In this document: positions 36,597 to 39,889 of the stretch, piece after piece
Layout of the letters: each line of letters begins with the position of its first letter
Numbering within the stretch: the first letter of the stretch is position 1
Assembly: GCF_025989185.1 (NCBI RefSeq)
Contig: NZ_JAPDNT010000001.1
Coordinates: 558,001 to 622,000 of the forward strand
Direction: 5' to 3'
From: Limobrevibacterium gyesilva
GTDB taxonomy: Bacteria; Pseudomonadota; Alphaproteobacteria; Acetobacterales; Acetobacteraceae
DNA length: 64,000 nt
Position numbers and translations under genes: made by a program
Notes under the pieces: model-generated
Told to the model about the DNA's origin: nothing
What the model saw: the letters and a program-made list of their open reading frames with translations, nothing else
Database searches by the model: none

Positions 36597-36976
36597 GACT
36601 TCGTCCGCTCCACCCACCGGCTCTTCACGCGCCCTGCATTCTGCCGGGTCCAGAACGAACCGGCCAGATGGCCGCATCTGTGCATCGCCGGCTGCTGTCA
36701 GCACGTGATCGTGCCGACCGCTGTGAGCGGCACATCGAAGAGCAGGCGTGGCGGCCGTTCCAACAACTTGCCGTGAGACGGACGATTCCCCTCTCCTGCA
36801 GCAAGCGACGCGATACAATTCCCCACGGGTTGCGTGGCGCGCGGCATCGCTAGGCGGCCCGTGTTCCAGTGTGCGCAGTGACGTGACGCCGCCGGACCCG
36901 TTCGGCGGCCAAGCACCATTCGGCCGGCGCAAAATGCGCTTCGCAGGACTGCACAACAATAAGACTGGAGGACATC
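36597..36976. other. divergent intergenic region upstream of the PQQ dehydrogenase
   Basis: 380 bases between the hydrolase (minus) and the PQQ dehydrogenase (plus). No coding sequence is evident. A 7-bp hairpin (GCCGCCG / CGGCGGC, 36888-36909, 8-base loop) lies 67 bases before the GTG start and could be a leader structure. The last 15 bases carry a strong Shine-Dalgarno, GGAGG. Promoters for both directions should lie here, but I see no clear consensus. Confidence 0.5.
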
Positions 36977-38695
36977 GTGTCCAAGAAACCGAATCTGCTC
37001 GCGGCTTCCATGCTCGCGACCCTGGGTGCCGCCGTGACGCCAGCCGTCCATGCACAGCCCGTCGACACAGCGCGTATCGAGGCGGGCAGCCCCAATGATT
37101 GGCTGACCTATCACGGCTCTTACAAGTCCTACCACTACAGCGGCCTCAGCCAGATCAATGCAGACAACGTCAAGGATCTGGGCGTCGCGTGGATCCATAT
37201 TCCGGGCCGGTCGACGCGCGGACTGCAGTCGATGCCCGTGGTGGCGGATGGCGTGCTGTACTACACCGGCTCGTACAGCCGCACCTTCGCGTTGAACGGC
37301 GCGACGGGCGACGTGATCTGGTCCTATTTCCCCGAGCTGGACGACGCACTGGTCGCGCGGCAGACGCATTCTCCGTACAACCGTGGCGCGGCGATCGGCG
37401 ACGGCCGCGTCTATGTCGGCACGGTGGACGGGCGCCTCATCGCGCTGGACATGAAGACCGGCAAGCCGGCATGGGACACCAAGCTCATCGATTCGCAAAA
37501 ACTCACGGTCGGTTTCACCGGCGCCCCGCTCTATGCCAAGGGCACGGTCGTCATCGGCGCGCAAGGCGGCGAGTGGCCGGGCCGTGGCCCGATCTTCGGC
37601 GTTGACGCCGCCACCGGAAAGAAGAAGTGGGAGTTCCTGACCGTCGCCGGAACGGAGGACGCGAAGCAGAGCTGGGGCAACGAGTCCTGGCGCACGGGCG
37701 GCGGTGGCGGATGGATGCCGGGCACCTATGATTCGGAAACAGGCACGATCTGGTGGGGAACGGCCAACCCCGCGCCGCTGTATGACTGGTCCGGCCCCGA
37801 CTACAAGACGTCCGGCGCACGGCCGGGCGACAACCTCTACACCTCGTCGGTCATCGGGCTCGACGTCGATACCGGCAACCTGAAGTTTTTCCATCAGGAA
37901 CTGCCGCACGACACCTGGGACTTCGACAGCGCCGTGGGTGAGTTCGTGATGCTCGACCGTGACGGGCAGAAACTGGTCGTTCACCCCAACAAGAGCGGCT
38001 TCATCTTCGTCTACGACCGCGCCGCCAAGCTGCAGAACGTCTGGCCGATCGCCCAGAACATCAATTTCGTGAAGAGCATCGACCCCAAGACGGGTGAGTT
38101 GATCGGCCGGCGCGACTTCTCCGCGGGAAAGGTCAGCGAGCCGCTCTGCCCGCACATCTCGGGTGGTGTAAGCTGGAACTCTGGCTCCTACAGCCCGGCG
38201 ACCGGGCTCTACTACAAGCTTGGCCAGGAGTGGTGCATGCGGCTGGAAGTCGTGAAGACGACGCCGGTCACGCAGCCGCAGGTGCAGCTGAACATCGGCG
38301 CGAACTTCACGATTGCGCCGCCACCCGGCGGCGAGATCTACGGCCATCTTGACGCGCGCGACCCGGTGACGGGCGCGAAGAAATGGGAGGTCCGCTACCC
38401 CGAGCCGCCGCTGGCCAGCGTTCTGTCCACCGCCGGCAACCTCGTGTTCGTGCCGGATTCGCGCGGCATCCTGCATGCCTACAACGCGCAGACGGGCGCC
38501 GAGCTCTGGAGCCATTCCGACGGCACCGGCCATCAGGGCGGCATCGTCAGCTACTTCGCCAACGGCAAGCAATACGTGGCCGTAACGGCGGGCTTCGGCG
38601 GCATGGCGACCGACGACTACGCGCCGACATTCGGCGGGCCGTACAAGAGCATGTCGCGCGATGACGGCGCGCTCGTCGTCTACAGCCTGAAATAG
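36977..38695 (+). CDS. PQQ-dependent alcohol dehydrogenase (XoxF/ExaA family) with lanthanide-type Asp-Phe-Asp motif
   Basis: Periplasmic quinoprotein oxidising alcohols and passing electrons to cytochrome c. 572 residues. Signal peptide to about residue 26 (AVHAQ), then an eight-bladed propeller with tryptophan-docking repeats (e.g. GATGDVIWSYF). Metal/PQQ ligands: E199 (GGEW), N264 (GTANPAP), catalytic D315 and D317 in TWDFD. An Asp two residues after the catalytic Asp marks lanthanide-dependent enzymes; calcium enzymes have Ala or Ser there. The vicinal Cys-Cys that normally precedes VNRG is replaced by T130-H131 (THSPYNRGAA). K339 stands where methanol dehydrogenase has Arg331. The start is GTG with GGAGG 6 bases upstream. 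Cytochrome c and MxaJ-like genes follow. Confidence 0.92.
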   Translation: MSKKPNLLAASMLATLGAAVTPAVHAQPVDTARIEAGSPNDWLTYHGSYKSYHYSGLSQINADNVKDLGVAWIHIPGRSTRGLQSMPVVADGVLYYTGSYSRTFALNGATGDVIWSYFPELDDALVARQTHSPYNRGAAIGDGRVYVGTVDGRLIALDMKTGKPAWDTKLIDSQKLTVGFTGAPLYAKGTVVIGAQGGEWPGRGPIFGVDAATGKKKWEFLTVAGTEDAKQSWGNESWRTGGGGGWMPGTYDSETGTIWWGTANPAPLYDWSGPDYKTSGARPGDNLYTSSVIGLDVDTGNLKFFHQELPHDTWDFDSAVGEFVMLDRDGQKLVVHPNKSGFIFVYDRAAKLQNVWPIAQNINFVKSIDPKTGELIGRRDFSAGKVSEPLCPHISGGVSWNSGSYSPATGLYYKLGQEWCMRLEVVKTTPVTQPQVQLNIGANFTIAPPPGGEIYGHLDARDPVTGAKKWEVRYPEPPLASVLSTAGNLVFVPDSRGILHAYNAQTGAELWSHSDGTGHQGGIVSYFANGKQYVAVTAGFGGMATDDYAPTFGGPYKSMSRDDGALVVYSLK

Positions 38696-38726: not shown

Positions 38727-39074
38727 ATGTTCGGGACGACGCTCCCGGCGGTGGCCCTGCTGGCCGGACTGGCGTGTGTGATGCCAGGGACGGTCCGCAT
38801 GGCCACCGCCCAAGGGGCGCCGGCGCAGGAAGGCGGGAAGCTGGATGTGAACCAGCTTTTTGCCGGCACCTGCGGTTGGTGCCATAGCGATGGCGGCCGC
38901 GTCGCCGGTAAGGGACCGAAGCTGATGGACACGGAGCGCAGCGACGAGTTCATTCGCAACCGCATCCGCAATGGCAAGGAGGGCGCGATGCCAGCGTTCG
39001 GTCAGATGTTCAGCGACGCGGACATCGACGCGATCATCAAATACATCCGCACCCTGAAACCCGACGAAGGATAG
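38727..39074 (+). CDS. periplasmic c-type cytochrome, probable electron acceptor of the PQQ dehydrogenase
   Basis: Small monohaem cytochrome of 115 residues. Signal peptide LLAGLACVMPGTVRMATAQG is cleaved near residue 29. One haem motif, CGWCH (49-53), and the axial Met in AMPAFG (about M88) define a class I cytochrome c. It sits 31 bases after the PQQ dehydrogenase and before an MxaJ-like gene, the arrangement of xoxF-xoxG-xoxJ. The gap is almost entirely self-complementary (GGGCCG at 38695-38700 pairs with CGGCCC just before the ATG), and no Shine-Dalgarno is visible, so translation may be coupled to the upstream gene. Confidence 0.9.
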   Translation: MFGTTLPAVALLAGLACVMPGTVRMATAQGAPAQEGGKLDVNQLFAGTCGWCHSDGGRVAGKGPKLMDTERSDEFIRNRIRNGKEGAMPAFGQMFSDADIDAIIKYIRTLKPDEG

Positions 39075-39103
39075 GAACGACAGCGACAAGGAGGGGCGTG
39101 CCG

Positions 39104-39889
39104 ATGCGCAAGTCCGTGATGAAGCCGCGCCTGCTGGCAGTGCTGCTGGCCGCGGCAACTCTCCTTGCAACCCACGCCTCGGCACGTTCGCTGGACGGGA
39201 TCCGCCAGCGCAGGGCGCTCGGCCTCTGCGCCCATCCCAATTCCCTGCCCTTCGCCAGCAAGGCCGCGGAACCGCCGGGATTCCAGATCGAGATGGGTCG
39301 CGCCCTGGCCGGCCAACTGGGGGTTTCGCTGGCCACGGACTGGATCATTTCGACTATCCAGATCCGGCGTGCCGATTGCGACATCGTGCTGGACGTGATC
39401 GCGGATCGCGAGGCGCAGGAAGAAAGCGGCCTTCGCATCTCCAAGCCCTATTACCGCACCGGCGCCGCGCTGACGGTGGACCCGGACAGTACGATCACCT
39501 CATTCCACAGCCTGAACGAACGCACGAAGGTCGGCGTCCAGGTCGGCTCCGCCGCCGCGATGGTCCTCGGCCGCAGGCATGTGGGGATATCGATCTTCGG
39601 CTTCGAGGATGACGCGCTGGATGCCTTGATCAATCATGAAATCGACGCCGCGACGGTAACGCCGGCAACGGCCGGCTATTACAATCTCAGGCATCCCGGC
39701 AGGACGGTCCGCGTGCTGGGCCTGGATGACAGCGACCCGATCCTGTCGTGGAACGTCGCGGTCGGCATGATGCGGCCGGACGAACGCCTCCGTGCCGCCA
39801 TCGATGAGGCGTTGGACAGCTTGCGCTCCGCGGGCACGATCGGGACGATCTACGGGCGGTACGGGATCACCCTGCTGTCGCCGCAATAG
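39104..39889 (+). CDS. MxaJ/XoxJ-like periplasmic binding protein
   Basis: Periplasmic protein of the SBP_bac_3 fold, 261 residues. A signal peptide, LLAVLLAAATLLATHASA, is cleaved near residue 26. The family start LGLCAHPNSLPFASK (about 41-55) parallels the RVCADPNNLPFSN run of MxaJ/XoxJ, and CDIVLDVIADREAQEESG lies near 92-109. MxaJ-type proteins assist maturation or activation of the partner PQQ dehydrogenase. Third gene of the module, 29 bases after the cytochrome. I chose ATG 39104 over GTG 39098, because GGAGGGG lies 7 bases before it. A free-standing amino-acid binding protein is a less likely alternative. Confidence 0.78.
   Translation: MRKSVMKPRLLAVLLAAATLLATHASARSLDGIRQRRALGLCAHPNSLPFASKAAEPPGFQIEMGRALAGQLGVSLATDWIISTIQIRRADCDIVLDVIADREAQEESGLRISKPYYRTGAALTVDPDSTITSFHSLNERTKVGVQVGSAAAMVLGRRHVGISIFGFEDDALDALINHEIDAATVTPATAGYYNLRHPGRTVRVLGLDDSDPILSWNVAVGMMRPDERLRAAIDEALDSLRSAGTIGTIYGRYGITLLSPQ

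Follow-up and report, generated by a model that had tools for sequence, protein, structure and literature searches.

The dehydrogenase gene at 36977..38695 (forward strand) of the window, the whole stretch of 64,000 nucleotides of Limobrevibacterium gyesilva DNA analysed here, raises the question of how a quinoprotein with the metal ligands of a lanthanide enzyme may work when Thr-His occupies the place of the vicinal Cys-Cys. An Asp pair together with a Glu and an Asn binds the lanthanide in XoxF and PedH/ExaF, and the role of the vicinal disulfide in quinoprotein alcohol dehydrogenases (ADHs) is still discussed, either as electron transfer to cytochrome c or as positioning of PQQ. This disulfide lies over PQQ, and in ExaA it has been tied to the passage of electrons to cytochrome c550 (Mennenga 2009, as cited in PMC8546591 and PMC12997753). 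On the strength of sequence comparison, we give a probability of about 0.72 to the reading that the window protein is a periplasmic PQQ dehydrogenase of an apparently uncharacterised subfamily, which would most likely bind a lanthanide through E199, N264, D315, and D317 and would deliver electrons to an adjoining cytochrome c with no vicinal disulfide.

The window gene encodes a predicted exported PQQ dehydrogenase

The 572-residue frame opens with a GTG, five bases downstream of a GGAGG at 36967-36971, and its Sec-type signal peptide spans about residues 1-26 and ends in AHA-Q; the GGAGG and the signal peptide were read by eye. The product reaches 212.2 bits against Pfam PF01011 (gathering score 26.7), which places it in the superfamily, and its top NCBIfam model is TIGR03075 (PQQ-dependent dehydrogenase, methanol/ethanol family) with 442.6 bits, below the cut-off of 480.05. 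An AlphaFold model (mean pLDDT 86.7, pTM 0.89) predicts the eight-bladed PQQ propeller of the solved members and superposes on PedH (6zcw) with a Z of 47.0 and an rmsd of 2.1 Å over 517 residues. Since 25 other solved PQQ dehydrogenase entries match the model at Z 41.5 to 47.1, the fold by itself cannot pick among them.

Metal ligands and the vicinal position

Residues were placed by phmmer alignments of the window protein to five solved chains (1kb0, 1kv9, 6zcv, 6zcw, and 1flg). The sequence-only reading had assigned E199, N264, D315, and D317 to the metal site, and the alignments bear out both this set and its numbering: E199 (codon 37571..37573, forward strand) and N264 (37766..37768, forward) fall on the metal Glu and Asn of all five chains, and D315-F316-D317 (37919..37927, forward), which comprises the catalytic Asp and the additional Asp that lanthanide enzymes have, aligns with W-D-F-D of PedH. 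The position of D317 had been named beforehand as a point on which the reading could fail, and D317 lies on the additional Asp of PedH. Judged by alignment, the window dehydrogenase thus carries the lanthanide-type set in full, that is, Glu, Asn, catalytic Asp, and Asp two residues on. The same reading had treated K339 as a departure, a view that was dropped because Lys also stands at the aligned place in 1kb0 and 1kv9 and in 81/81 rows of the lineage; it is usual in the window lineage and in quinohemoprotein ADHs and is no special feature.

The replacement of Cys-Cys by T130-H131 (37364..37369, forward) was confirmed, as these residues fall on the Cys-Cys of the same five chains. A Cys pair displaced to a nearby position, another check set beforehand, is ruled out for the window protein, whose mature form contains two cysteines only, C391 (38147..38149, forward) and C420 (38234..38236, forward); the check came out the other way for a sister clade described below. 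C391 and C420 are the halves of an ordinary distant pair, which we take to be a disulfide as in methanol dehydrogenase and which is also found in the XoxF of the same genome and in some other reference rows. Model confidence in the T130-H131 loop is middling (block pLDDT 76 and 78); that H131 touches PQQ is accordingly a guess, although the imidazole probably packs against the cofactor.

Relation to known quinoproteins

PedH/ExaF (PQQ-ADH type 2b, lanthanide-dependent; 6zcw) resembles the window protein in fold, in its Glu/Asn/Asp/Asp ligands, and as a soluble single-domain enzyme. However, identity is 33-34%, PedH has Cys-Cys where the window protein has Thr-His and Arg where it has K339, and two reference rows taken as PedH-like from their residues (L101 and L106) lie on another branch of the tree. 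XoxF shares the D-x-D set and, in xoxFGJ, the series of dehydrogenase, cytochrome c, and XoxJ-like genes, but is 28-31% identical and retains Cys-Cys, including in the own-genome copy (L001) that forms with an annotated XoxF5 (L100) a 100/99 pair on a separate branch. The vicinal Cys pair over PQQ, by which XoxF and PedH/ExaF are both recognised, is lacking in the window protein. The quinohemoprotein ADHs 1kb0 and 1kv9 give the top phmmer scores and have Lys at the place of K339. Unlike the window protein, they have Cys-Cys, Thr for the additional Asp, and a C-terminal haem domain, which shows in the chain length.

A widespread clade with a fixed Thr-His

A pattern scan of an 84,980-species collection returned 114 stretches, 85 of which are relatives and 80 of which were kept. 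Plasmid records matching at 1e-100 or better numbered four, two from Rhodococcus qingshengii and two from Skermanella, and one of each was used. Seven of 200 genomes sampled from the same order match at 1e-150, the window's own counted, and among 385 genomes sampled from the class the window's own is the only match at 1e-140. Restricted to full or near-full rows, the alignment holds 54 members of the window's clade (clade I, window counted), 24 of a sister clade (clade II), and 3 outgroup rows.

Clade I has a branch support of 89/92 (86/87 in a reduced tree) and its members are 61-86% identical to the window dehydrogenase. Many Bradyrhizobium, Acetobacteraceae, and further alphaproteobacterial records belong here, together with the Rhodococcus plasmid gene and metagenome bins from the window's own family. 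Each of the 54/54 rows retains K339, the two cysteines C391 and C420, the four ligands, and the motif Q-T-H-S-P, and identity of T130, H131, E199, N264, D315, D317, C391, and C420 throughout is more than chance would give. The divergent PQQ dehydrogenase with a D-x-D set and no vicinal pair that had been proposed from the window letters is therefore supported by sequence and falls in a clade of its own, a real, widely spread, and apparently uncharacterised subfamily with D-x-D and a fixed Thr-His. From these alignments, what is unusual is the fixed Thr-His replacement more than the loss of the Cys pair. A partial literature search by title and abstract found no description of Thr-His at the vicinal-pair site, which is a weak negative. 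The frequency of this family in Bradyrhizobium gives it added relevance; one lanthanide-dependent, methanol-growing Bradyrhizobium is reported to carry another seven PQQ dehydrogenases whose function is unknown (PMC12628762).

Cys pairs do occur elsewhere in two clade I rows: the divergent L057 has one at residues 548-549, near the C-terminus and far from the canonical place, and L051 has one inside its signal peptide.

A conserved neighbourhood of cytochrome c and XoxJ-like genes

Downstream of the window dehydrogenase lie, on the same strand, a gene for a single-heme cytochrome c with a CGWCH motif (38727..39074; PF13442, 50.8 bits), the likely electron acceptor, and a gene for a XoxJ-like periplasmic binding protein (39098..39889), which matches PF00497 and has TIGR03871 as its best NCBIfam model. 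The gene order is that of xoxFGJ-type operons, though the XoxJ model score is 61.9 bits, below the cut-off of 212.15. Of the 53 clade I loci (window included), 48 extend at least 1.2 kb past the dehydrogenase and five are too short; with the window proteins as tblastn queries, both genes were found 3' of the dehydrogenase in all 48. In clade II, 24 of 27 loci have room, with the cytochrome in 22 and the binding protein in 0, and in the outgroup 2 of 3, with the cytochrome in 0 and the binding protein in 1; such zeros reflect limits of the search, since the Skermanella record among the outgroup loci carries an annotated cytochrome c.

The Rhodococcus qingshengii plasmid (L094, 7944-12189) has genes annotated consecutively for the dehydrogenase (64% identity), cytochrome c, a XoxJ-like protein, and a TonB-dependent receptor, and this gene row in a Gram-positive host looks as if it had been gained from a proteobacterium. 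In the window's own genome, a pqqE gene scoring above its cut-off stands just before the XoxF gene (L001, L108; contig C1, about 315345-318459), and the genome should thus make PQQ.

No common substrate gene was found near the clade loci. For the alpha/beta hydrolase, FAD monooxygenase, and cupin of the window, tblastn finds no counterpart in any of the 82 remaining loci, and for its aldo-keto reductase one in 5 of these 82, at scattered places. As window genes beyond the operon recur only in scattered loci, the substrate is not readable from the surroundings.

A sister clade with a Cys pair at another site

Clade II (L059-L080, L084, and L085; branch support 100/99) is 46-55% identical to the window dehydrogenase, likewise lacks the canonical Cys-Cys, and has the same ligands in 24/24 rows. 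In contrast to clade I, it has Phe, Ile, or Pro (position 130) and then Phe or Tyr (131) in place of Thr-His and, in 24/24 rows, a vicinal Cys pair four and five residues past the metal Glu. The loop reads Gly-Gly-Glu-x-x-Gly-Cys-Cys-Gly (for example in the gene at L060:7001-8725), so that Gly-Cys-Cys-Gly starts three residues past the Glu, and contains one inserted residue relative to clade I. A displaced pair, absent from the window protein, is therefore present next door on the tree. The structure model of one member (L068) has a mean pLDDT of 86.3. The outgroup rows (L086, L087, and L095), in 2 of 3 of which Asp stands at the place of E199, have neither the canonical nor the clade II pair, and on the simplest history clade II would have gained its pair.

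In XoxF1, backbone groups of the metal-Glu loop contact a PQQ carboxylate (PMC8546591), and the clade II cysteines could thus adjoin the cofactor. Two Ketogulonicigenium rows without the canonical pair (L096 and L097) have two cysteines that span the same loop. This hint of loop cysteines near PQQ in both groups is suggestive only. Title and abstract searching of part of the literature returned no description of the Gly-Cys-Cys-Gly pair, again a weak negative.

Loss of the canonical pair across the family

Candidate solved enzymes without Cys-Cys are sorbose dehydrogenase and a DON-detoxifying enzyme, and Ketogulonicigenium plasmid genes stood in for these structures in our sampling. Fifteen other PQQ dehydrogenases were picked by hand as references, 3 from the window's own genome and 12 from plasmids. 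D-x-D is present by alignment in 12 of them and the canonical pair in 9; the 6 without it are two from Ketogulonicigenium vulgare (L096 and L097), one each from Azoarcus KH32C (L102), Roseomonas (L107), and Deinococcus (L098), and a paralogue in the window's own genome (L004). Like the window protein, these six have no Cys-Cys before the N-R-G or R-G motif and five have D-x-D by alignment, but they are 29-36% identical to it, have other residues at the site, and lie on other branches. The paralogue L004 (contig C14) also has a shortened stretch before N-R-G and is one of those with D-x-D.

In a 46-row tree, 37 rows lack the pair and 9 have it, figures that are not frequencies, the rows being hand-picked and 31 of the 46 coming from the window lineage. 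Well-supported branches force at least three changes of state, and the minimum is again three in a 43-row tree freed of the longest branches by removal of one quinohemoprotein and both Ketogulonicigenium rows. According to a survey of Methylobacteriaceae (PMC8561711), nearly every orthologue has retained the pair, the exceptions being some minor members in three of the groups. A loss unique to the window protein was rejected in view of these changes and published exceptions. To call the disulfide nearly universal may be right for the methanol and ethanol dehydrogenases proper; for the family at large it goes too far, given 6 of 15 references without the pair and the exceptions in PMC8561711.

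Proposed mechanism and competing explanations

The enzyme that we propose would use E199, N264, D315, and D317 to bind PQQ and, most likely, a lanthanide ion, with D315 as the base that sets off alcohol or aldehyde oxidation. From PQQH2, electrons would then pass singly to the cytochrome c of the adjacent gene, and the XoxJ-like protein may have a role in assembly or activation, by analogy with what is proposed for xoxFGJ. PQQ would be held without a disulfide, with H131 (an aromatic residue in clade II) covering it, and electrons would reach the neighbouring cytochrome by a route other than the vicinal disulfide. The aligned ligand positions and the fold, the invariance of T130-H131 and of the ligands, the cytochrome and XoxJ-like neighbours, and pqqE were counted in favour of this PQQ/lanthanide explanation. 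Counted against it were Asp at the E199 place in 2 of 3 outgroup rows, the middling model confidence of the T130-H131 loop, the scores of TIGR03075 and of the XoxJ model under their cut-offs, and the D-x-D of a glucose dehydrogenase.

The enzyme could instead be an ordinary PQQ dehydrogenase working with Ca or with either metal, D-x-D being permissive and the absence of the Cys pair of little effect. This is the more serious competitor, at odds of roughly one in five in our estimation. D-x-D also occurs in a membrane glucose dehydrogenase of known biochemistry, which is counted as Ca-dependent and predicted by the authors to be facultative (PMC11996626), and the motif alone is thus not decisive for a lanthanide need. 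The canonical pair also seems dispensable, given its absence from 6 of the 15 hand-picked references and the minimum of three changes on the tree. Against this, all 78/78 rows of the two clades share the full ligand set, and the invariance of Thr-His itself in clade I speaks against neutrality. Far less probable, and in our view almost negligible, is a degenerate quinoprotein that neither binds PQQ nor oxidises alcohols, comparable with the acido-empty-quinoproteins (group A; TIGR04528). This model does match the window dehydrogenase, with 278.7 bits, but the score falls far short of the 650-bit cut-off and is lower than that of TIGR03075. Moreover, the ligands, R136, W238, W246, and K339 are invariant in 54/54 clade I rows, and a cytochrome gene stands beside the clade I dehydrogenase wherever downstream room exists.

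If the PQQ/lanthanide reading is followed further, the vicinal disulfide may be conceived as a replaceable module, for which Thr-His would hold PQQ and relay electrons in clade I and which clade II would have rebuilt in the metal-Glu loop, on a different side of the pocket; this remains a tentative idea drawn from the alignments, and we consider it rather doubtful. Clade I, with its ligands and cytochrome partner kept and its Thr-His fixed, stands beside a sister with the pair at another place, which makes the role of the disulfide directly testable, and it is the pair of clade II that poses the sharper question.

Other features of the loci

Two dehydrogenase frames are interrupted and are either broken genes or sequencing errors: that of Bradyrhizobium AS23.2 (L056) is shortened to 479 residues, and the outgroup gene at L086:7001-8566 has an internal stop. 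Four clade II dehydrogenases (L060, L061, L065, and L067; query locus counted) are followed, on the opposite strand, by a flavocytochrome c sulfide dehydrogenase-like gene, and a P450 gene lies near 2 clade I loci (query locus counted); neither number is large enough to support a conclusion.
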